Of a stretch of DNA of 64,000 bases, positions 9,216 through 19,054 are shown one piece after another. Made by a program: the position numbers and the translations under genes. A model generated the notes under the pieces. The model searched no databases. It was not told the DNA's origin and saw nothing but the letters and a program-made list of their open reading frames with translations. Position 1 is the first letter of the stretch. Each line of letters begins with the position of its first letter. This DNA is from Acidobacteriota bacterium (GTDB lineage Bacteria > Acidobacteriota > Vicinamibacteria > Vicinamibacterales > UBA2999): the NCBI GenBank assembly GCA_020851565.1, contig JADZCN010000006.1:1-64000 (forward strand), given 5' to 3'.

Positions 9216-11027
9216 CTACTGCCCCTGCCCCAGCCAGGCCAGGACGCGCGCCTTCTGCTGTTCGGTCGCGTCGGGGCGCAATTCGAGGCGCCACGAACGT
9301 CCAGGGTCCGCGCCGAGCGTCACGTCCAGCCGCGTCAGCTTGTCGCGGCGCGCCACCAGCAGCTGCACCTTGTCCCCGGGGCGATACTGATCCAGCCGCG
9401 CCGCCAGGCCATCGGGGCGCACGCGCACTTCGTCGACGGCGAGGATCTCGTCGTCCACGTTCAGGCCCCCGTCGAAGGCCGGCGTGCCGCGGCGCACCCC
9501 GGTCACGACGAGGCGGCCGTTGTCGGTGCGAGTGGTTGTGCCGAGGAACGCGCGCGCGGTGCGCGGATCCACGGGGCGGAACCGCAGGCCGTAGTACTCC
9601 AGCGCTTCGGTGTAGTCGAGCTCGTCGGTGGACTCGGCCGCCGTCCGGAAGAACGGCTTGAGATCGATCCCGGCCGCCTCGGTCATCACCTGGTAGAACT
9701 GCTCCGGCGTGTAGCCCTTGTCGCCGCCGTAGCGCTGCAGCGCGATCCGCATCCCGTCGTCCAGCGACTTCGTGCCCTCCGTGGCCTTCCGGATCTTCGC
9801 GTCCAGGAGGAACGCAATCACCGCGCCCTTGGGGTAGTAGTCGATGGAGGTGTTGGGCGTGTTCTCGTCGGGGCGGTACTGCTTGATCCAGGTGTCGTAG
9901 GACGCCATGTTCACCGGCGTCACGAGTCGACCTGGACGCGACTGCACGGCCTCGATCTGGTTGGAGAGGCCGTCGAAGTACTCGTCGAGGGTGGAGAGTC
10001 CGGCGCGCCGCACCAGGACGTCGGCGTAGTAGTCGGTGAAGCCTTCCGCCACCCAGAGCGTCTTCACGTAGTTCTCGTTCTCGTAGTCGAACGGACCGAG
10101 CTCCACCGGGCGCAGGCGCTTGACGTTCCAGTTGTGGAAGTACTCGTGGGCGACGAGCGACAGCCAGTTCAGATAGCTGCGGTGCGTGCGCGTGGTGAAA
10201 CGGCTCGACATGGTGAGGAAGCTGTTCTTGTGCTCCAACCCTCCGCCGGTATCCACCACCATGTTGAGGAAGTAGTAGTGCGGGTAGAGGAGGGGGCCCA
10301 TCGCACGGCGGCCCGCCTCGACGATCTTCTGCACGTCGGCCACGGCGCGGTCCGCATCGAAGAGCGACGGATCGCCCTCGAGCACCAGCACGTGCTTCCT
10401 GCCTTCCACGGTGAACTCGCGCGTCACGGGGTTGCCGGCGACGATGGGGCTGTCCACGAGGGTGTCGAAGTCCTCGGCGCGGTAGGCGTGCGGGCTGCTG
10501 GTGACAGGCATCAAGGCGGTGGCGGAGCCCGTCCAGCCCGATGGCAGCTCGATCCGGACCTCGTGCGGCCGCGGCCCGCGCTCGACGAGCGTGAGGAACG
10601 TCGGCGCGCCGTTCAGCATGGCGAAGCCGGCCTCCACCCAGTTGTTGCGGACCGTCATCTCGCGGGAGTAGACGCGGTAGCGCAGCGTGACCGAAGAGGC
10701 GCCGGCGGTCGTGATTCTCCAGCGGTTCTTGCGCGACTTCTCCACCACGAGCGGCTTGCCGTCGGCGGTCGCGGTCACGGCCTCGACGTGGCGCTGGTAC
10801 TCGCGCACCAGGTAGGACCCGGGCGTCCAGACCGCCATGTACACCTCGATGGACGGCTGGCGGCCCGTCGGATAGACGGCCTCGACCTCCACGTAGTGCG
10901 TCTGCGGTGCAGGGAAGCGCAGCGTGTAGCGGATGGGTTCCGGCGCCTGCGCGTCGATCGAATCGGTGGTGGTGAGCATCACGACAAGGAGAGCGCCGGC
11001 AAGCGCGAAGAAGGTGGTGCGAGCCAT
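9216..11027 (-). CDS. M61 family metallopeptidase with PDZ domain
   Basis: A secreted zinc peptidase of family M61 (glycyl aminopeptidase group), 603 residues. Signal peptide at residues 1-26; a beta-rich N-terminal domain; the zinc site HEYFH at 294-298 with the third ligand Glu328 in VAEGFTDYY; and a C-terminal PDZ domain (about 510-580) typical for peptide-carboxylate binding. All catalytic residues are intact. The start codon is only 17 bases from that of the divergent oxidase gene, so their promoters must lie inside each other's transcription units. A second M61 gene lies at 14127. Confidence 0.92.
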   Translation of the reverse strand: MARTTFFALAGALLVVMLTTTDSIDAQAPEPIRYTLRFPAPQTHYVEVEAVYPTGRQPSIEVYMAVWTPGSYLVREYQRHVEAVTATADGKPLVVEKSRKNRWRITTAGASSVTLRYRVYSREMTVRNNWVEAGFAMLNGAPTFLTLVERGPRPHEVRIELPSGWTGSATALMPVTSSPHAYRAEDFDTLVDSPIVAGNPVTREFTVEGRKHVLVLEGDPSLFDADRAVADVQKIVEAGRRAMGPLLYPHYYFLNMVVDTGGGLEHKNSFLTMSSRFTTRTHRSYLNWLSLVAHEYFHNWNVKRLRPVELGPFDYENENYVKTLWVAEGFTDYYADVLVRRAGLSTLDEYFDGLSNQIEAVQSRPGRLVTPVNMASYDTWIKQYRPDENTPNTSIDYYPKGAVIAFLLDAKIRKATEGTKSLDDGMRIALQRYGGDKGYTPEQFYQVMTEAAGIDLKPFFRTAAESTDELDYTEALEYYGLRFRPVDPRTARAFLGTTTRTDNGRLVVTGVRRGTPAFDGGLNVDDEILAVDEVRVRPDGLAARLDQYRPGDKVQLLVARRDKLTRLDVTLGADPGRSWRLELRPDATEQQKARVLAWLGQGQ

Positions 11028-11044: not shown

Positions 11045-13162
11045 GTGACGGATCACCGGACGGTCGGCTTCCAGTACGCCGTCACGTCCCTGCTGTTCCT
11101 GCTCGTGGGCTTCCTGCTGATGCTGCTGATGCGATGGCAGCTGGCGTGGCCCGGTCAACCGCTGCCCGCGTGGCTCGTGCCGCTGCTCGGGGACGCCAAC
11201 GCGCCCGGCGGCATCATGCTGCCCGAGTTCTACAACCAGCTCGTGGCGATGCACGGCACGGTCATGATCTTCCTCGCCGTGGTGCCGATGGCCGCGGGGG
11301 CATTCGGCACGCTGCTGGTGCCGCAGCTCATTGGCGCCGCGGGCATGGCGCTGCCCCGAGTCAGCAGCCTGGCCTTCTGGCTGTATGCCGCGGGCGGCGC
11401 GGTGATGGTGGCCAGCTTCTTCGTGGACGGCGGCGCCGCCAATTCGGGATGGACGGCCTACCCGCCGCTCTCCATCCTGGCGACGAAGGGCCAGACCTGG
11501 TGGCTCGTGGGGATGGTCTTCGTCAGCGGGTCGGCCACGCTCGGCGCCATCGCGATGATCACCACCATCGTCCGGTCTCGTGCGCCGGGCGTGACGCTCT
11601 CGGGGATGCCGTTCTTCGTCTGGGCGCAACTGGTCACGGCGCTGCTCCTCCTGCTGGCGTTCCCCGCGCTGCAGGCGGCGGCGGTGTTCCAGTTGATGGA
11701 CCGCACGGCGGGCACCAGCTTCTTCCTGCCGAGCGGCCTGGTGATCGGCGGCATTCCGCTGCAGGACTACTCGGGTGGCGGGAGCCCGATCCTGTGGCAG
11801 CACCTGTTCTGGTTCCTCGCGCATCCCGAGGTGTATGTCCTCGTGCTTCCCGCGATGGGCATCGTCTCGGAAGTGATCGTCAGCAATACAAGGCGGCCGC
11901 TGTGGGGCTACGGCCTGATGGTGTCGGCAGTGCTCTTCCTGGGCCTGATGTCGATGCTGGTCTGGGCGCACCACATGTTCCTGACCGGCATGGGCACGAC
12001 GCTCAGCACGTTCTTCCAGATCACCACGATGATCGTGTCGATCCCCTCGGTGGTGCTGATCACAGCCCTCGTGCTCTCCTTGTGGGGCGGGTCGATCCGC
12101 TTCCCCACGGCGATGCTCTTCGCGCTGGCGTTCCTCCCGATGTTCGGCCTGGGCGGCCTCACGGGTCTGCCGCTCGGCCTGGCCGCCAGCGACATCACGC
12201 TGCACGACACCTACTACGTGGTCGCGCACTTCCACTACCTGGTGGCGCCGGGAACGATGTTCGCGCTGTTCGCGGGCATCTATCACTGGTTTCCGGCGGT
12301 GACAGGGCGGGCACTGAGCGAGCGGCTGGGCAAGTGGCACTTCTGGCTGTCGTTCTACCTGATCAACAACATCTTCCTGCCGATGTTCGTCATCGGCCTG
12401 GCGGGAGTGAACCGCCGGATGTACGACGCCGGCCTGCAGTTCGCTCTGGCGCAGCCGTTCCAGGCACTGCAGCGTCACATGACGTGGTCGGCCCTCGCGC
12501 TGGGTGTCGCGCAGATCCCCTTCCTGGTCGCGCTCGTGATGGCGTTTCGCCGGTCGCACCTGTCCGCACCTGCCGGCACCCGTTCGCACCTGTCCGCACC
12601 TGCCAGCACCTGGCCGCACCCCCCCGCACCTGCCAGCACCCGTTCGCACCCGCCCGCACCCGCCCGCACCCGTTCGCACCCGCCCGCACCTGATCTACCC
12701 GTCTGGCTCCTCGTGGCATGGTTGGCGATGTTCTTCGGCTCGCTGCTCTCGGGCTATGTACTGCTGCGCACGGGCAACGCCGAGTGGCCGCACCGGGCCA
12801 GCGGGTGGGGCCTCGCCCTGGGCGGCTCGGCGCTACTGCTGGCGTCCGCCGTGGTCACCCGGCCATCGCGGGCGGCCCTGCTGCTCTCGGCGGCTCCGGG
12901 CGCGGCGCTCGTCGCGTGGCTCACGACGCTGCACGGCGCGGCATTCGAGGCGGGCCGCACCCCCGCCGCACACCTGGAGTTCGCATCGTGGTTCACGCTC
13001 ACCGGCATGCTGCTGACCGTCATCGCGCTCGGCTGCATGGCCGCCGCGTGGAGCGCGTTCGTCCGATCGTCATCGCCCGCGCGGGCGCGCGGGCTTCGCA
13101 TCGTCTGGGGAGCACTGTCGCTGATATGGCTCGTCCTCTTGTCCGCCTTCTCGGTCGCGTGA
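11045..13162 (+). CDS. coxA: Haem-copper oxidase subunit I fused to subunit III-like domain
   Basis: Membrane catalytic subunit of an A-type cytochrome c oxidase. Residues 1-500 are subunit I: haem a His in AMHGTVMIF, CuB His and cross-linked Tyr in HPEVY, the HH pair in WAHHMF, and both haem ligands in HDTYYVVAHFHYL. After a linker (about 505-549) made by a 10-bp repeat, residues 550-705 resemble a shortened subunit III (MFFGSLLSGYVLLRTGNAEWP). By alignment with canonical sequences, the D-channel Asp (IGAPDMAFPR, here IGAAGMALPR) and the K-channel Lys (VPTGIKIF, here IPSVVLIT) are missing. GTG start; stop overlaps the next gene. Confidence 0.9.
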   Translation: MTDHRTVGFQYAVTSLLFLLVGFLLMLLMRWQLAWPGQPLPAWLVPLLGDANAPGGIMLPEFYNQLVAMHGTVMIFLAVVPMAAGAFGTLLVPQLIGAAGMALPRVSSLAFWLYAAGGAVMVASFFVDGGAANSGWTAYPPLSILATKGQTWWLVGMVFVSGSATLGAIAMITTIVRSRAPGVTLSGMPFFVWAQLVTALLLLLAFPALQAAAVFQLMDRTAGTSFFLPSGLVIGGIPLQDYSGGGSPILWQHLFWFLAHPEVYVLVLPAMGIVSEVIVSNTRRPLWGYGLMVSAVLFLGLMSMLVWAHHMFLTGMGTTLSTFFQITTMIVSIPSVVLITALVLSLWGGSIRFPTAMLFALAFLPMFGLGGLTGLPLGLAASDITLHDTYYVVAHFHYLVAPGTMFALFAGIYHWFPAVTGRALSERLGKWHFWLSFYLINNIFLPMFVIGLAGVNRRMYDAGLQFALAQPFQALQRHMTWSALALGVAQIPFLVALVMAFRRSHLSAPAGTRSHLSAPASTWPHPPAPASTRSHPPAPARTRSHPPAPDLPVWLLVAWLAMFFGSLLSGYVLLRTGNAEWPHRASGWGLALGGSALLLASAVVTRPSRAALLLSAAPGAALVAWLTTLHGAAFEAGRTPAAHLEFASWFTLTGMLLTVIALGCMAAAWSAFVRSSSPARARGLRIVWGALSLIWLVLLSAFSVA
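12554..12690. repeat. 10-bp tandem repeat in the oxidase gene
   Basis: About fourteen decamers of the CGCACCTGCC/CGCACCCGTT type. Because 10 is not a multiple of 3, the translation repeats every 30 bases (RSHLSAPAST-like decapeptides). It separates the subunit I and subunit III-like parts. Confidence 0.95.
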
Positions 13163-13320
13163 TGCTGGCCTGTCCCATTTGCGCCACGCCCGAGGGCGCG
13201 CTGATGTCGGACGGGGCGCGCACGGGCGCACTCGTCCTGATCGTCGTGACCGTCGTGGTGCTCACACCACTGGCGGCCTTTGGCGTCCGATTGTGGCGCC
13301 GGGAGCGGGAGCACCGGTGA
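13162..13320 (+). CDS. Small CPIC membrane protein of the oxidase operon
   Basis: A 52-residue protein starting MLACPICATPEG, then one membrane helix (ALVLIVVTVVVLTPLAAFGV) and a basic end (WRREREHR). Start overlaps the subunit I/III stop as TGATG, and its own stop overlaps the GTG start of subunit II, so it is translated as part of the oxidase operon. Similar tiny proteins with an N-terminal C-P-x-C and one helix occur in oxidase operons of related bacteria; function is unknown. A role in copper delivery or assembly is suggested only by the cysteines and position. Confidence 0.7.
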   Translation: MLACPICATPEGALMSDGARTGALVLIVVTVVVLTPLAAFGVRLWRREREHR

Positions 13321-14057
13321 TCGAGCGACTGTTGCCCGAGGCTGCGTCCGCGCACGCGGCCATGCTGGACGCCGTGCTCGTGGACGTTCATTGGCATGCG
13401 CTGGCCGTGTTCCTCGTGTGGTCCGTGATCTTCGTCACGGCGCTCGTGCGATTTCGCGAGGGGCGAAGCCCCGAGCCGCGCGCCGCCGGCCCAGGCATGC
13501 TGTGGCCGGCCGTGGCCATCGCCGCCGTCATCCTGGGCGATGTGGTACTGCTGGCCACGCGCGCGCTGCCGGCGTGGAACGCGCGGATGGCACCGCCAGC
13601 GGCCGGCGTCGAGGCCCCGCTCGAGATTCACGTGGCGGCCGAGCAGTTCGCGTGGAACATCCACTACCCCGGCCCCGATGGCCGCTTCGGCCGGACGGGC
13701 GCCGCGTTCATCAGCGCCGCGAATCCGGTGGGCATCGACCGCGACGACCCGGCCGCGGCGGACGACATCGGCCTGGTCAACCTCCTGGTGCTTCCGCTCG
13801 GCCGCACGATCGTGGTGCAGTTGACGAGCCGCGATGTCGTGCACAGCTTCACGCTGCCGCAGATGAGGGTGAAGCAGGACGCGACACCCGGCCTGACCGC
13901 GCGGACCTGGTTCACGCCCACCGCCCCCGGCGCCTGGGAGATCGGATGCTCGCAGCTCTGCGGGCTCGGGCACTACCGCATGCGAGGGGACTACCGCGTC
14001 GTGCCTCGGGACGAGTGGGAGGAGTGGCAGGCGGAAGAAGTCGCGCGGCTCCGTTAA
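13317..14057 (+). CDS. coxB: Cytochrome c oxidase subunit II
   Basis: Subunit II of the terminal oxidase, 246 residues. Two N-terminal membrane helices (about 25-45 and 60-80) anchor a periplasmic cupredoxin domain with the dinuclear CuA site: the His in VVHSFTLP and the cluster CSQLCGLGHYRM supplying two Cys, His and Met. This domain takes electrons from cytochrome c. No haem-binding CxxCH follows, so it is not a caa3-type fusion. The GTG at 13317 overlaps the stop of the CPIC protein. It is the last gene of the operon; the downstream gene is convergent. Confidence 0.92.
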   Translation: MIERLLPEAASAHAAMLDAVLVDVHWHALAVFLVWSVIFVTALVRFREGRSPEPRAAGPGMLWPAVAIAAVILGDVVLLATRALPAWNARMAPPAAGVEAPLEIHVAAEQFAWNIHYPGPDGRFGRTGAAFISAANPVGIDRDDPAAADDIGLVNLLVLPLGRTIVVQLTSRDVVHSFTLPQMRVKQDATPGLTARTWFTPTAPGAWEIGCSQLCGLGHYRMRGDYRVVPRDEWEEWQAEEVARLR

Positions 14058-14126: not shown

Positions 14127-16106
14127 CTACTGCGCGCCGAGCCAGGCGTCGCGGAAGCGCTTCTGGTCCGCGGAGAGCGTGCCGCCCGTGCGCTCCACGG
14201 GCACGATCTCGATGCGCGGGTCTTCCTCGAAGGTAATGGTCGTCTCCACCTTCTCACCACCGCGGCGCACGAAGCGCAGGGCCACGCGCTCCCCGGGCCT
14301 GTGCCGCGCGAGGATCTCCTCGACCTGGCCCTCGCGGACGATGTCGGTGCCATCGAGGCTGACGACGTAGTCGTCCTGCGCGACGCCGGCCTTGTAGAGC
14401 GGGGACCCGAACGGGACCAGCATGGTCACGCGCGCGCCGCCGGCGCCGGCCTGCAGCCTCACGTCGCCCATCCACGCCTTCCCCGCCTGGTGCTTCCGAA
14501 CGACCAGCCCTGCCCGCCCCATCAGCTTCGCGTAGTCCACCAGCTCCCGACCGAGGACGTAGCGCTCGAAGTACTGCTCGGCGAACTTCGCGTCGCCTGA
14601 GACTTCAGCCAGCGTGTCACGCAGGTCCTGGATGGTGTAGGTGACCGGCACCATCCCCGGCGTCTTGTCGGCGCTCCGCCCGAACTTCCGCCACAGGGCG
14701 CGCATGTAGTCGTCGAGCGTCAGCTTACCGTCGCTGCGGTCGCGGAGGCTCAGGTCGAGCCCCAGCGCGATCGCCTGCCCGTAGGTGTAGTACGAGATGA
14801 ACAGGTTCGGCCACGCCGTGCGATCGATCGACACCGCCGCGTCCACGAAGGGCGCCAGGCGGCTCATCTCCACCGCCGATCGAATCTGCCGGCCGGGGCT
14901 GAACTGCACGGTGTTGACGACGCCCGCGAGCCCGCCGAGCAGCATCTCGAGGGGCATCAGGTTCGCGCGCTCCAGGATGAGACCACCGTAGTAGTTGGTG
15001 AACCCCTCCCCGAACCAGAGCTCGTCCGAGACGTTGGCGTCCTCGAAATCGAAGGGCTCGATGCGCTTCGCACGGAGCCGCTCCATGTTCCACGCGTGGA
15101 AGAACTCGTGCGAGACGGTGCCGAGCATGCCCAGGCGCTGATCGGGGTTACGCAACGCGCCCCGCCTGGACACCACGGTGCTGTTCCGGTGCTCCATCCC
15201 GTCGCCGTCCACCCATGGCAGGTAGTCGGCCAGGAACGTGTAGGTGCCGGTGTCGAATCGCGGCATCTCGCCGAACACCTTCGCCGACTCGCGCACGATC
15301 CTCTCCACGTCCCGAGTGTAGGCGTCTGCGTCCGCGTCGGTCCCATCGTGATGCAGGGCGATGCGGATCGTCTGGTTGTCGACGGCGAAGGTGCGCAGCG
15401 TGAAGTCGCTGAACTCCGCAGGGCTGTCGAGGAGGTAGTGGATGTTGGGCGCGGTGAAGACGAGCGGATCCTGCGTCGGAAACAGCTGCGTCGCCACGCG
15501 CCACTTCCGGCCCGGCGGCTGCACGAAGGTGACCCGCGCCGGCCGGTCCATCTGTCCGCGCACGAACACGACCGTCGCCGGCATGTTCATGTGCGCGTGC
15601 GCGGCGTCCACGCTCAGGTACGTCCCGTCGGTCCGATCGCCGAACACCTTGTAGGTGACGACGACGGCCCCGTCGTGCCCCGAGACGTTCCACTGGTGCA
15701 GGTCCGGCCGCGCCGGCTCGAGGGCGCGCCCCTTGCCGTCCGTGATGCTCAGCTCGAAGACGTTCTTCGCGAACTCGTGCAGCGCGTACCGCCCGGGGGA
15801 GGTGCGGCTCATGCGAATCTCGGCGGTTCCTGCCGGCAGCCCGCTGAACCGTGCCTCGACCACCATCCACCGGTGCTCGGGGGTCGGGAACGACAGCCGG
15901 TACTCGAACGGCGCGGCCTGCGCCCACGCGGACGTGGCGCACAGGAGGAAGGCCATCAGCAGGAGCCACACCTGGCCCGAGGGCCTCGCCGCTTCGCGGC
16001 TCGGCAGGCGGCGCTTCGCGCCGTGGGCGGCCGGCACTGTTCCGCGCCGTGAATTGGATGTCTGTGCCATCTGCGTCATCTGCGGCTTCTGCATCATCTG
16101 CGTCAT
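14127..16106 (-). CDS. M61 family metallopeptidase with PDZ domain (second copy)
   Basis: A second secreted M61 zinc peptidase. Counting from the ATG at 16106 it has 659 residues: an odd N-terminal leader, a signal segment at about 46-63 (VWLLLMAFLLCATSAWAQ), the zinc site HEFFH at 333-337, Glu367 in FGEGFTNYY, and a PDZ domain near 545-620. The ATG overlaps the kinase stop codon as ATGA and both lie in a 9-bp repeat; the first 15 residues are repeat-encoded and the next 25 come partly from a GC hairpin repeat. GTG 15971 is an alternative start that would give a normal signal peptide. It is the third gene of a signalling operon. Confidence 0.9.
   Translation of the reverse strand: MTQMMQKPQMTQMAQTSNSRRGTVPAAHGAKRRLPSREAARPSGQVWLLLMAFLLCATSAWAQAAPFEYRLSFPTPEHRWMVVEARFSGLPAGTAEIRMSRTSPGRYALHEFAKNVFELSITDGKGRALEPARPDLHQWNVSGHDGAVVVTYKVFGDRTDGTYLSVDAAHAHMNMPATVVFVRGQMDRPARVTFVQPPGRKWRVATQLFPTQDPLVFTAPNIHYLLDSPAEFSDFTLRTFAVDNQTIRIALHHDGTDADADAYTRDVERIVRESAKVFGEMPRFDTGTYTFLADYLPWVDGDGMEHRNSTVVSRRGALRNPDQRLGMLGTVSHEFFHAWNMERLRAKRIEPFDFEDANVSDELWFGEGFTNYYGGLILERANLMPLEMLLGGLAGVVNTVQFSPGRQIRSAVEMSRLAPFVDAAVSIDRTAWPNLFISYYTYGQAIALGLDLSLRDRSDGKLTLDDYMRALWRKFGRSADKTPGMVPVTYTIQDLRDTLAEVSGDAKFAEQYFERYVLGRELVDYAKLMGRAGLVVRKHQAGKAWMGDVRLQAGAGGARVTMLVPFGSPLYKAGVAQDDYVVSLDGTDIVREGQVEEILARHRPGERVALRFVRRGGEKVETTITFEEDPRIEIVPVERTGGTLSADQKRFRDAWLGAQ
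15985..16030. repeat. GGCGGCGCTTCGCGCC hairpin inside coding sequence
   Basis: The palindrome-like GGCGGCGCTTCGCGCC at 16007-16022, with a related hairpin at 15986-16000, lies in the N-terminal leader of the second M61 gene. The same 16-mer occurs twice more directly and once inverted at 21195-21373. Confidence 0.8.
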
Positions 16107-16114
16107 CTGCGTTC
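16059..16114. repeat. CATCTGCGT 9-bp repeat at the kinase/M61 junction
   Basis: Six or so units of a nonamer. On the minus strand it reads CGCAGATGA, and one unit supplies both the kinase stop TGA and the M61 start ATG. Confidence 0.9.
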
Positions 16115-19054
16115 GAGCGTGGCGGCCTCGGCACGGGCATCGACGAGCAGCGGCACGTCCGCGTCGGCGTCCTTCCAGAACTCGAAGAACTCGGCGTAGG
16201 CAGCCTGCGCATCGTCGTGGCGCCCGAGCGCCGCCAGGGCCCGGGCCCGCTGCACCATCAGCCAGGGCTTCAGCCCGTTCAGACCGGACTGGACGGGCGG
16301 CGCGAGCAGATACTCGAAGGCGCGCAGCGCGTCGGCGTGCCGGCCCTGGAGCAACTGGGCGACCGCCCACAGGACCAGGGCGTCGGCTCGCTTCGGCGTG
16401 AACGTCGGGGGGTCGACCATGGCTTGGGCGTCGGCCGGTCGTCCCTCCGCCAGGGCCACGGCTGCATTGAAAACGGGTCTCCGTGCCTCGCCCTCCGGCG
16501 TGTTCGCCAGCTCGCGCACAGCCGCCGGCAAGGCCTGTCGCGCCAGCGCGGCGTTGCGGGCGAATGCGGCGTAGAACAACTGCTCGTCCGCGGAGCCGGG
16601 TGTGAGGTGGCCGGCTTTCCTCAGCTCCGCGAACCGTCGATCGGCATCGGCGGCCAGCCCGAACGTGGCGGCTGTCAGGACGGTCCCCATCGCCGGCTCG
16701 GCGAGGGCCGTCGCCCGGCCGTCGCGAACCATCCCGGCCATCCACGCGTCGGCCAGTGTCCAGGCCTCGCGCACGCGGCCCCTGAAGAGCGCGGCCTGCA
16801 CCCGGAGACCCGTGATGTTCACCTCGTCGCGCCGGCCCTTGACGGCCTCCACCTGCGCCTGCGCCAGGGCGTCGTCACCCGTGAGCGTGGCGAGGACGAG
16901 CAGGCCCGACCGCGCGCTCGTGCTGTCCTGCAGCTTCACCGCCTGCTCGAATGCCAGCCGGGCATCCTCGAAGCGCGTGGCGTCCATGAGCGCGTAGCCG
17001 AGGTTCGCATGGGCGTTGGGCTGATCCGGCCCGGCCTTCGTGGCGGCCTCGAGCATGGGAATGGCCTCGCTGACCCGGCCCTGCTGGCGCAGCAGGAGGC
17101 CGGTGTTGGCCAGCGCGGCGTAATCGTCGGGATAGGTGGCCAGCAGGAGCTTGTAGGTGTCGATGGCCCTGTCGAGATCCTCGGAGACCGTGGTGTGATA
17201 CCGCGCCTCGATGTAGTAGCGCTCGCGATCGCTCACGCGCTCCCGCAGCTCGTAGGCCTTCGTGGTGGCGGCCCGCGATTCGGCCAGCTGTCCCAGGTTG
17301 GAGTACACCGTGCCGAGGCGTGCGTAGGCCAGGGCGAAGTTCGGGTCGAGCTCGATGGCGCGCCTGAAGAACGGCACGGATTCGAAGTCGCCCTCGGTGC
17401 GCCGCGTGGTCGTGCCCTGGCTGTACGCCTTGAGCGCCTCGAGCGACGGCGTGGTCGCCTGCTCGACCGGCGCGTCATAACGCTGGATGGAGGCGAGCGA
17501 CTCCCCGAGGCGCTCGCGGAACTGCCGGACCGCTCCGCTGAGGGCCGCGAGCACGTCCTCCTTGCCCGAGGCCTGGACCTGCTCCTCCGCGAGGATGTCG
17601 CCCGTGACGCAGTCCTGCGCGCTCAGCGTGACGAGGTACGCGGATCCGAGACCGGCAATCGTTCCGCCGAGCAGCGCCTTGGCGGCCGCGCGCTGGCAGA
17701 GCTCGCGACCCACGTCGGGCGTCACCGGCGACATCGGATCCCGGCCCATCAACCGCAACGTGGATTGCTGCTGCTGCTCGTTGAGCACGTTCAGGAACGG
17801 CGACTGCCGCAGCTGGACGGCAAGCGCCTCGTCGAGCGTGTCATCGAACATCGTGTCGCCCGTCCGGTTGACGAACTCCGACAGGACGACGAGATCCCGG
17901 TCGGCGAGCGCGGGCGTCTGCTGTGAGCGCCAGAGCAACACCGCGGCGACGACGCCGATGGTCACGAGGGGTGCCGCAATCCACAACGCGGATCGCCGGG
18001 GAGACACGGACGCCGATGGCGCCGGGAACGCAGATGATGCAGATGAACCGGGAGCCGCAGATGACACAGATGAAGCGGGAGCCGCAGATGGCGCAGATGA
18101 AGCGGGAGCCGCAGATGGCGCAGATGACGCAGATAGATCAGGGGGGGCCAGATGGGGTTGGGGTGTCGTGCCGGCGGTCGCCGTCAGTGTGCGGCCGCTC
18201 TCCAGTGCCTTTCGGAGCCGCCTGAGATCGGCGCGCAGGTCTGCGGCGCTCTGGTAGCGCATCTCGCGGTCCTTCTCGAGCGCCCGGAAGACGATGCGGT
18301 CCAGGTCCTCGGGTACGCCCGCCGTCACCTGCGAGGGCGCGGGAGGAACGCCGCCGAGGATGCCCTCGAACACCACGGCCGCCGTCGCGCCCTGGAACGG
18401 TGCCCGGCCCGTCGCCATCTCATAGAGCACGATGCCCAGCGAGAACAGGTCGCTCCGCCCGTCGATCTCGAGCCCGCGCGCCTGCTCCGGCGACATGTAG
18501 TGGATGGTGCCGATGGCCGAGCCCGCCATCGTCACCTGGTCCGAGCCGCCGATGGTCTCGGCCCCGGCCGACGCCCGGCCGGGCTCGGTGAGCTTCGCGA
18601 CGCCGAAGTCCAGCACCTTCACCTGGCCGCGCGTCGTGATGAAGAGGTTGGCGGGCTTCAGGTCGCGGTGGACGATGCCCTTGGCGTGGGCCGCGTCCAG
18701 CGCGTCGGCGATGTGCTCGCCGAAGGACAGCACGTCGTCGAGCGGCAGCGGCCCGCGCGCGAGGCGGGCTTTCAGCGGCTCACCTTCGAGCCGCTCCATC
18801 ACCATGAACTGCTGCCCCTCGCGCTCGCCGATGTCGTGCAGGGTGCAGATGTGCGGGTGGTTCAGCGACGAGATGGCGCGCGCCTCCCGCAGGAACCGCT
18901 GAACCGACTCCGGGTCGGAGCACGCCTCCTCGGGAAGGAACTTGACGGCCACTTTGCGGCCCAGGCGGAGGTCCTCGGCCTCGTACACCACACCCATGCC
19001 GCCGCGGCCGAGCCGTTCGCCGATCCGGTAGTGCGAGACCGTCTGTCCCGTCAT
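16103..19054 (-). CDS. Ser/Thr protein kinase with TPR repeats
   Basis: A membrane-anchored eukaryotic-type kinase, 983 residues. The kinase domain covers 9-285: LGRGGMGVVY glycine loop, catalytic Lys in VAVKFLP, HRDLKPAN, DFG, and MSPEQARG in the activation loop. A Ser/Ala/Pro linker (about 303-345) encoded by a 9-bp repeat precedes a single membrane helix (about 355-375). The C-terminal half has a FlgO-like segment (FVNRTGDTMFDDTLDEAL) and several TPR repeats, presumably periplasmic. Its ATG overlaps the stop of the hybrid histidine kinase (ATGA), and its stop overlaps the M61 start, so the three are coupled. Confidence 0.93.
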   Translation of the reverse strand: MTGQTVSHYRIGERLGRGGMGVVYEAEDLRLGRKVAVKFLPEEACSDPESVQRFLREARAISSLNHPHICTLHDIGEREGQQFMVMERLEGEPLKARLARGPLPLDDVLSFGEHIADALDAAHAKGIVHRDLKPANLFITTRGQVKVLDFGVAKLTEPGRASAGAETIGGSDQVTMAGSAIGTIHYMSPEQARGLEIDGRSDLFSLGIVLYEMATGRAPFQGATAAVVFEGILGGVPPAPSQVTAGVPEDLDRIVFRALEKDREMRYQSAADLRADLRRLRKALESGRTLTATAGTTPQPHLAPPDLSASSAPSAAPASSAPSAAPASSVSSAAPGSSASSAFPAPSASVSPRRSALWIAAPLVTIGVVAAVLLWRSQQTPALADRDLVVLSEFVNRTGDTMFDDTLDEALAVQLRQSPFLNVLNEQQQQSTLRLMGRDPMSPVTPDVGRELCQRAAAKALLGGTIAGLGSAYLVTLSAQDCVTGDILAEEQVQASGKEDVLAALSGAVRQFRERLGESLASIQRYDAPVEQATTPSLEALKAYSQGTTTRRTEGDFESVPFFRRAIELDPNFALAYARLGTVYSNLGQLAESRAATTKAYELRERVSDRERYYIEARYHTTVSEDLDRAIDTYKLLLATYPDDYAALANTGLLLRQQGRVSEAIPMLEAATKAGPDQPNAHANLGYALMDATRFEDARLAFEQAVKLQDSTSARSGLLVLATLTGDDALAQAQVEAVKGRRDEVNITGLRVQAALFRGRVREAWTLADAWMAGMVRDGRATALAEPAMGTVLTAATFGLAADADRRFAELRKAGHLTPGSADEQLFYAAFARNAALARQALPAAVRELANTPEGEARRPVFNAAVALAEGRPADAQAMVDPPTFTPKRADALVLWAVAQLLQGRHADALRAFEYLLAPPVQSGLNGLKPWLMVQRARALAALGRHDDAQAAYAEFFEFWKDADADVPLLVDARAEAATLERR
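18020..18142. repeat. CGCAGATGA 9-bp repeat in the kinase linker
   Basis: A dozen or so nonamers (GCAGATGAC, GCAGATGGC and the longer unit AAGCGGGAGCCGCAGATG) lie in coding sequence, giving the SSAPSAAPAS-type linker. It is the same family, in opposite orientation, as the array at 16059-16114. Confidence 0.9.

Follow-up and report, generated by a model that had tools for sequence, protein, structure and literature searches.

The 64,000-nucleotide stretch of DNA analysed here (the window; Acidobacteriota bacterium, assembly GCA_020851565.1, contig JADZCN010000006.1, positions 1 to 64,000) encodes the catalytic subunit of an A-lineage cytochrome c oxidase, fused to a degenerate subunit III, in which key residues of both the D and the K proton channel have been replaced. 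The protein belongs to a strongly supported clade of A-type enzymes, spread over several phyla, that has no lysine at position 354 of subunit I and most members of which, to judge by their aligned residues, keep the D channel. Loss of the lysine belongs to the whole clade; loss of the D-channel aspartate is confined to the window's branch and a small number of others. All members share polar residues on helix VIII, and nearly all the subunit II sequences located carry an acid at a site where ordinary oxidases have none, features that we tentatively interpret as a rebuilt, lysine-free K path. Textbooks define proton uptake and pumping by A-type oxidases, the mitochondrial enzyme included, in terms of the D and K channels.

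Channel residues of the COX1 encoded in the window

The subunit I (COX1) core lies at 11045..12550 on the plus strand, as do all features of the oxidase operon described below (PF00115, 423.6 bits). Its best PDB match by phmmer is COX1 of Paracoccus denitrificans (1ar1_A, 349 bits), whose numbering is used throughout for sites in COX1 and in subunit II (COX2), and the alignment is ungapped at all named sites. A first-pass annotation of the DNA had described an oxidase with intact metal ligands and an HPEVY tyrosine but altered channel residues, and the alignment bears this out. The haem and CuB ligands H94, H276, H325, H326, H411 and H413 are all kept, together with E278 and Y280 (Glu262 and Tyr264; 11828..11836); for the cross-linked Y280 it is the residue that was read, the cross-link itself not being visible from sequence. 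At the mouth of the D channel D124 is replaced by Gly100 (11342..11344), nearby N131, which we take to be the equivalent of bovine N98, by Ser107 (11363..11365), and the K-channel lysine K354 by Leu338 (12056-12058). In addition N113 of the D channel is Thr89 (11309..11311), and further D-channel sites are apolar (S134 to Ala, S189 to Val, S193 to Ala and N199 to Ala). Serine is found at positions 291 and 351 of the K path, and helix VIII contains Q325, T327, T328, S332, S335 and T340, corresponding to Paracoccus 341, 343, 344, 348, 351 and 356 (12017..12064). The same annotation had taken 11045-12550 as the whole gene; the frame in fact continues to 13162 and specifies 705 residues, in which a repeat linker joins COX1 to a COX3-like part of five helices.

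An aspartate or lysine at a shifted position, which would have overturned the first-pass observation, was looked for in subunit I and rejected, as the alignment is ungapped at every site and relatives repeat the same states. Locus L116, from the same genus and 82% identical, has the same Thr, Gly and Ser at positions 113, 124 and 131, which also rules out misassembly or sequencing error. The other COX1 of the window genome (L001) retains K354 and the ordinary Asn, Asp and Asn at these three positions (N-D-N), and thus the genome is not devoid of ordinary channels in general.

A clade of A-type oxidases without the K-channel lysine

A scan of GTDB genomes yielded 80 loci, among which L006-L022 lie at 44-69% identity and ordinary oxidases at 39-45%; the former come from many phyla as read from record titles, some of which are apparently wrong (L016, L017, L022). 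L022, titled 'Acidimicrobiia', has the same COX1 as G419, a genome from the acidobacterial family to which the window belongs. Matches at E<=1e-130 were obtained from 75 of the 396 genomes in the window's phylum, six of them (L140-L145, 45-47% identity) lying outside the clade; of the 43 genomes in the window's family, 30 have a match. At E<=1e-140 matches occur in 18 of 68 genomes from the phylum of the L011 genome and in 26 of 288 from that of the L020 genome.

A tree was built from 78 COX1 rows, no B-type row being included, after removal of nine channel columns. The 60 rows without Lys354 (hereafter K-less) are separated from all others by a branch with 100/100 support, and lysine is present in 17 of the 18 rows beyond it. 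The K-less set was selected by its residue at 354; the independent evidence for it is this tree, constructed without that column. Position 354 in 113 distinct K-less rows is occupied by Ile (68), Leu (30), Val (14) or Met (1). Gene order also differs: COX2 lies downstream of COX1 in 41 of 44 K-less loci, whereas it lies upstream in all 69 ordinary loci. The sister group of the clade includes L144 (G323:C3), in which a separate replacement of K354 by Ile (IPSAIIGFNL) is accompanied by an intact D channel; L144 and the B-type L003 were excluded from both the clade and the ordinary sets.

Polar residues on helix VIII and an acid in subunit II

Column-by-column comparison of K-less and ordinary sequences revealed that the clade has gained polar residues on helix VIII. 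Among the 113 K-less rows T344 and S348 are invariant, S351 occurs in 112, Thr or Ser356 in 111, T343 in 109 and Q341 in 107 (five others have Glu and one was unread); S291 is mostly replaced by Ala. The 71 ordinary rows, in contrast, have mostly Met at 341 (58) and mostly Ala at 348 (55). At 100 degrees per residue, positions 341, 344, 348 and 351 would lie on one face of the helix.

COX2 was located for 44 of 75 K-less rows (the rest were without flank or match), 69 of 72 other rows and 14 of 20 later loci. Position 85 of this subunit, seven residues after E78, is an acid in all 44 K-less loci (30 Glu, 14 Asp), whereas in all 68 ordinary sequences it is Pro (64) or Thr (4). The 14 later loci have 13 Glu and one Lys, bringing the overall count to 57 acids and one lysine in 58 K-less sequences. 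In the exception, L255, it is as if subunit II were supplying the K path with a lysine once more. When five PDB subunits (two Paracoccus entries, Thermus, human and Rhodobacter) are aligned with HMMER, E78 falls on E78 and position 85 on proline. In the window the acid, on transmembrane helix 2 where Paracoccus has Pro, is Asp75 (13539..13541), and the E78 equivalent, which is kept in 26 of the 44 K-less loci, is Ile68 (13518-13520). The K path of model enzymes is described as beginning near a subunit II Glu and passing through Ser, Lys and Thr to the Tyr (available part of PMC8361435). Positions 78 and 85 would be two helix turns apart on one face, a geometry that suggests that the acid at position 85 replaces the K-channel lysine.

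Loss of the D channel

Aspartate is retained at 124 in 85 of the 113 K-less rows, the remainder having Gly (12), Asn (8), Glu (3), Ala (2), Gln (1), Arg (1) or a gap (1); it is present in 70 of 70 rows with Lys354. The window's branch is mixed: at positions 113, 124 and 131 L119 retains N-D-N, L091 and L137 have N-E-N and L090 has T-D-A, while the others are without an acid at 124. D124 has been lost from 11 of 20 loci in a second branch, which belongs to the phylum of the L011 genome; the replacement is mostly Asn, and one further locus was unread. L139 (G334:C51) is also D-less, with T-R-H at the three sites and hence Arg at 124; a small CxxC gene directly follows its COX1, and no COX3 match of note occurs in the 11.4 kb examined. 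Well-supported branches force at least three changes at D124 in the 78-row tree, with Asp to Glu counted as a loss, and four in a larger quick tree supported by the Shimodaira-Hasegawa-like approximate likelihood ratio test (SH-aLRT) only.

Column entropy places N113, D124, N131, S134 and N199 at the 81st-96th percentile within the window's branch (16 rows), where Q341, T343, T344, S348 and S351 show no variation. None of these D-channel columns varies in the other 57 K-less rows, one N113 being unread. Some elements of the D channel persist: Y35 is kept in 15 of the 16 window-branch rows (the other is a gap), and many D-less rows retain S193 and some N199. The distribution of states over the tree indicates that loss of the D-channel aspartate is younger than loss of the lysine, and was repeated.

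A second A-type lineage, L185:1408-2868 (G167) with L266-L273, is present in 8 of 297 genomes of the phylum scanned. Lys354 is replaced by Gln in all eight of these sequences, D124 by Asn, Gln or Thr in seven, and N113 by Ile or Val in all, and it appears from these replacements that channel-poor A-type oxidases arose more than once.

These results also bear on what the first-pass annotation had made of the missing residues. Placement in an oxidase tree, a check that it had proposed, puts the clade among A-type rows. The lysine and aspartate losses, which it had treated as one event, prove to be separate, the former being older. Its suggestion that either another proton path is used or pumping is unusual is strengthened in the first half, by the clade-fixed polar set on helix VIII and by an ionisable residue at a new place in subunit II, a protein that it had not covered.

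Decay of subunit III

The C-terminal part of the 705-residue protein (12689..13162; 157 residues) is a degenerate, five-helix subunit III joined in frame to COX1, as shown by tblastn matches to the COX3 of relatives and by a structural model that aligns over its full length with the I+III fusion 2yev_A. It yields no Pfam match at E<=0.1, whereas a relative's COX3 scores 75.6 bits with PF00510, and the conserved Glu of subunit III and the WHFVD motif are gone. The two domains are connected by a low-complexity linker encoded by a minisatellite (12550..12692), a GC-rich 10-bp unit that is in frame and all copies of which are translated; predicted local distance difference test (pLDDT) values are <50 at residues 508-549.

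Decay of this subunit accompanies the D-less state. In the 68 K-less rows with all seven conserved COX3 columns read, the median number of positions kept is 7 in 43 N-D-N rows versus 2 in 21 D-less rows, and four intermediate rows keep 5, 5, 5 and 0. The helix Glu of 'ASEVMLFG', presumably bovine E90, survives in 43 of 44 rows that have an acid at 124, but 11 of the 12 D-less rows from the first set have lost it; most rows of the second D-less branch either retain this Glu or carry Asp instead. Joint loss of the D channel and subunit III makes sense because removal of subunit III is reported to alter D-path uptake (available part of PMC8361435), about two branches bearing on the point.

Selection and co-occurring oxidases

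The genes are under purifying selection. The ratio of non-synonymous to synonymous substitution rates (dN/dS) is 0.04-0.27 in 10 window-branch pairs, compared with 0.06-0.18 in seven control pairs, and 0.20 between the window and L116. These values, and the existence of the same-genus relative, lead us to reject a pseudogene or relaxed selection.

In 14 of the 16 window-branch genomes another A-type COX1 was read, with YSHPAVY, Lys and N-D-N, and the window-type enzyme is thus a second oxidase there. G426 has the D-less enzyme as its only COX1-family match (genome completeness not given). In one acidobacterial genus, for which 14 genomes are listed, the K-less, D-intact enzyme is the only COX1-family gene in 7 of 7 genomes tested. 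Genomes with only a K-less COX1, such as L205 (G184) and similar ones, contain a distant CydA-like protein (<=92 bits, about 640 amino acids) adjacent to a cytochrome c-like frame. Six genomes of the verrucomicrobial phylum (2.2-2.5 Mb) carry a K-less COX1 together with particulate methane monooxygenase/ammonia monooxygenase (pMMO/AMO) genes, a combination that points to cultured methanotrophs, presumably Methylacidiphilum-like; the available part of a review lists aa3, ba3 and cbb3 oxidases for verrucomicrobial methanotrophs (PMC8498564).

Relation to known oxidase families

By descent and fold the protein is an A-lineage oxidase, and the PDB entries that it matches, whether by sequence or by structure, are A-type. 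An AlphaFold model of all 705 residues (mean pLDDT 82.4; predicted template modelling score, pTM, 0.87) confirms the fold and the COX3-like end. It aligns with 3fye_C over 500 residues at Z 49.0, the Paracoccus and Rhodobacter aa3 enzymes spanning Z 46.9-49.0, and the first-ranked Foldseek hit is the I+III fusion of Thermus caa3 (2yev_A), aligned over residues 1-705; in a second alignment 665 residues of this structure are matched at Z 45.0. In the structural alignment the COX3-like part is covered by few rows, only residues 1-540 being spanned by a fifth or more. The score with the NCBIfam equivalog TIGR02891 (CtaD_CoxA) is 510.4 bits, below the cut-off of 670.75.

With the A1 aa3 oxidases of Paracoccus and Rhodobacter the window enzyme shares the fold, the His ligands of haem a, haem a3 and CuB, the Glu and Tyr of the HPEVY motif (AHPEVY, containing Glu278) and a CuA-bearing subunit II. 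It differs in having Gly, Thr and Ser for D124, N113 and N131, Leu at 354 and Ile at the subunit II E78 site, an acid at subunit II position 85, and a degenerate, fused subunit III. As descent, fold and active site agree with the A1 enzymes and both channels do not, we classify it as an A-lineage variant and as neither a regular A1 member nor a member of the B family. Thermus thermophilus caa3, an A2-type enzyme with its own channel set, likewise has subunit I fused to subunit III, but in the window a repeat linker joins the two domains and the subunit III part escapes recognition by Pfam. Enzymes of the B family (ba3) carry Thr in place of the K-channel Lys, as does the B-like L003 of the window's own genome. 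L003 scores 83 bits against the window query, compared with 303-490 for the A-type L001 and L140-L145, although Ser at 351 is common to L003 and the window. The clade differs from the B family in its A-lineage sequence and fold, in having Leu or Ile rather than Thr at 354 and in keeping E278; the likeness would be one of working, with one Lys-free K-like path and no D path (described for the B family in the available parts of PMC8079940 and PMC12901375). The nitric oxide reductases cNOR and qNOR, which are without the active-site Tyr, are rejected as an identity, as the HPEVY Tyr is kept.

K-channel variants are known among archaeal family-A oxidases (Degli Esposti 2021, PMC8239418), and under one hypothesis discussed there the K channel would have been lost seven times. 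Those enzymes are archaeal while the present clade is bacterial, and the available part of that paper names neither the clade nor the subunit II acid. A description of the bacterial clade, of the subunit II acid or of repeated D loss was not found in searches of an open-access library that leaves out most subscription papers and all supplements.

Proton uptake by the D-less enzymes

In A-type oxidases two to three chemical protons and all pumped protons pass through the D channel and the rest through the K channel; in the B and C families one K-like channel serves alone and pumping is lower (available parts of PMC8079940 and PMC12901375). By analogy, the simplest account of the pattern reported here may be that a rebuilt K path freed the D path and allowed an A-lineage enzyme to work in a B-type-like manner. 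The ancestor of the clade would have swapped the K-channel lysine for a hydrophobic residue, the path being rebuilt as a ladder of polar residues on helix VIII (Q341, T344, S348 and S351) leading to the cross-linked Tyr, and the acid on subunit II helix 2 would have taken over from the lysine as ionisable station. Subsequently the D channel would have been let go in the window's branch and at least one other, together with features of subunit III that serve it. The ladder and the acid would thereby carry protons, and all chemical protons would now use the rebuilt K path, as in B-family enzymes; the conservation of residues is consistent with a single K-like channel for all protons. Pumping by the D-less enzyme is probably reduced or absent, in which case the yield would be below 1 H+/e- or nil. 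That the window encodes an O2 reductase of this kind, with a rebuilt, Lys-free K path, a dismantled D path and reduced or absent pumping, is a tentative reading whose chances we put just short of even. The broader proposition is appreciably more doubtful, and in our judgement stands a better chance of being wrong than right: that A-family oxidases independently became single-channel enzymes as the ionisable station moved from a subunit I lysine to a subunit II acid, the D channel and subunit III being freed and dismantled more than once in enzymes that still respire. Pumping by the H pathway could coexist with any of the readings considered here (available part of PMC12901375).

It should be emphasized that several observations weigh against a rebuilt K path. 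The chief unexplained point is the invariance of E278 at the inner end of the D channel, which is kept, with Y280, in 113 of 113 K-less rows; something still needs it, whereas enzymes of the B family lack it. The usual mouth of the K path, the subunit II equivalent of E78, is missing from the window's branch and from 18 of 44 K-less loci. That residue 85 stands beside the K path would follow from helix periodicity, the model being of the COX1/3 protein alone. The L185-type lineage has lost the lysine and in most members the aspartate although it has no acid in subunit II helix 2, and the acid is therefore not a general requirement. The ordinary comparison set is mostly from Burkholderiales. 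With respect to subunit III, an independent-pairs test of D loss against COX3 decay on the quick tree found three pairs on starred branches, none of which differed; a correlated change in which D loss drives COX3 decay thus has no support from this test, and the counts reflect about two branches. Moreover, rows that keep Asp or Glu at 124 (L119, L091, L137, L090 and L255) already have a decayed or partly decayed COX3, and hence erosion of the subunit seems, as far as the rows tell, to start at the base of each of the two branches.

The conservation of E278 is perhaps better explained if no cytoplasmic channel works in the D-less enzymes, which would draw their chemical protons from the periplasm and, separating no charge, serve as an electron or oxygen sink. 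Bacterial cNOR takes its chemical protons from that side, and the window has lost both named channels, the E78 equivalent of subunit II and a large part of subunit III. Such a function would be tolerable in the 14 of 16 window-branch genomes whose second A-type oxidase has Lys and N-D-N, the cell there not needing to rely on the D-less enzyme, and both channels were lost in the L185-type lineage, where helix 2 of subunit II carries no acid. We nevertheless consider periplasmic uptake unlikely: it leaves the fixed polar set of helix VIII and the subunit II acid without a job, and G426, with the completeness proviso given above, has the D-less enzyme as its only COX1-family match.

Retention of E278 could also reflect a modified D channel, in which water and small polar residues feed this glutamate from another surface group and the K path is dispensable. 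Y35, S193 and N199 are kept to the extents given above; Thr and Ser mutants of bovine N98 retain O2 reduction and lose pumping (available part of PMC12901375), and protons can enter by other surface groups when subunit III is absent (available part of PMC8361435). On the other hand, S134, S189, S193 and N199 are all apolar in the window, most of these columns are among the most variable of its branch, and the K319M mutation prevents haem a3 reduction in the model enzyme (available part of PMC12901375), indicating that the K path is not readily dispensable. We judge this explanation, too, to be quite unlikely. Use of another substrate such as nitric oxide, or a role as sensor or assembly factor, is improbable. 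Channel loss is typical of the nitric oxide reductases of the haem-copper superfamily, but here all 113 rows have the HPEVY Tyr, subunit II retains its CuA motif, selection is purifying, and the K-less, D-intact relative is the sole COX1-family gene in all seven tested genomes of one acidobacterial genus. Finally, that the gene is decaying on its way to loss, as the degenerate subunit III, the minisatellite linker and the freely varying D-channel columns might suggest, is highly improbable given the open frame, a dN/dS of 0.20 against L116 and down to 0.04 in the branch, and similar states in other genera.

If the rebuilt K path is real, these proteins would be natural channel-minus A-family enzymes that still respire, and the clade predicts that a subunit II acid can stand in for the K-channel lysine. 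As a naturally graded series it could help to show which residues are needed for pumping, being K-less throughout and D-less as well in one branch, with intermediates in which D124 is Glu or in which the Asp is kept and both Asn are lost. There is also a warning for annotation: scores place such genes under 'cytochrome c oxidase subunit I' or 'aa3/caa3', and they may be credited in error with a full proton yield.

Operon and neighbouring genes

The COX1/3 gene, a small gene and COX2 each overlap their neighbour by a few bases. COX2 (13317..14057) has a GTG start, the position of which was inferred from relatives, and matches PF00116 (54.4 bits on 13287-14054); its CuA motif, CSQLCGLGHYRM, is at 13947. 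The intervening gene (13162..13320), which overlaps the stop of COX1/3 and the start of COX2, encodes a 52-residue membrane protein with a CPIC motif and without any Pfam family. A small CPxC membrane protein between COX3/COX4 and COX2 is common in K-less operons (L006, L012, L015, L116, L139 and others), such proteins being found in 22 of the 42 K-less loci with >2 kb downstream, and is perhaps an accessory subunit or a copper-handling factor.

A link to the acidobacterial A1 caa3 oxidase used at nanomolar O2, whose genes lie upstream of bc1 genes (Trojan 2021, available part of PMC8407424), was considered and is not claimed; in one record, L015 (titled Acidobacteriaceae), visual inspection of the 3.6 kb that follow COX2 revealed no bc1 gene. 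Adjoining COX1 at L009:5106-5804 and L015:998-1801 is a gene for a secreted protein with a carboxypeptidase regulatory-like end, cupredoxin-like by eye. In the window, genes for M61-type peptidases flank the oxidase operon on both sides on the minus strand, at 9216-11027 (identified by Pfam match) and 14127-16745 (by sequence likeness).

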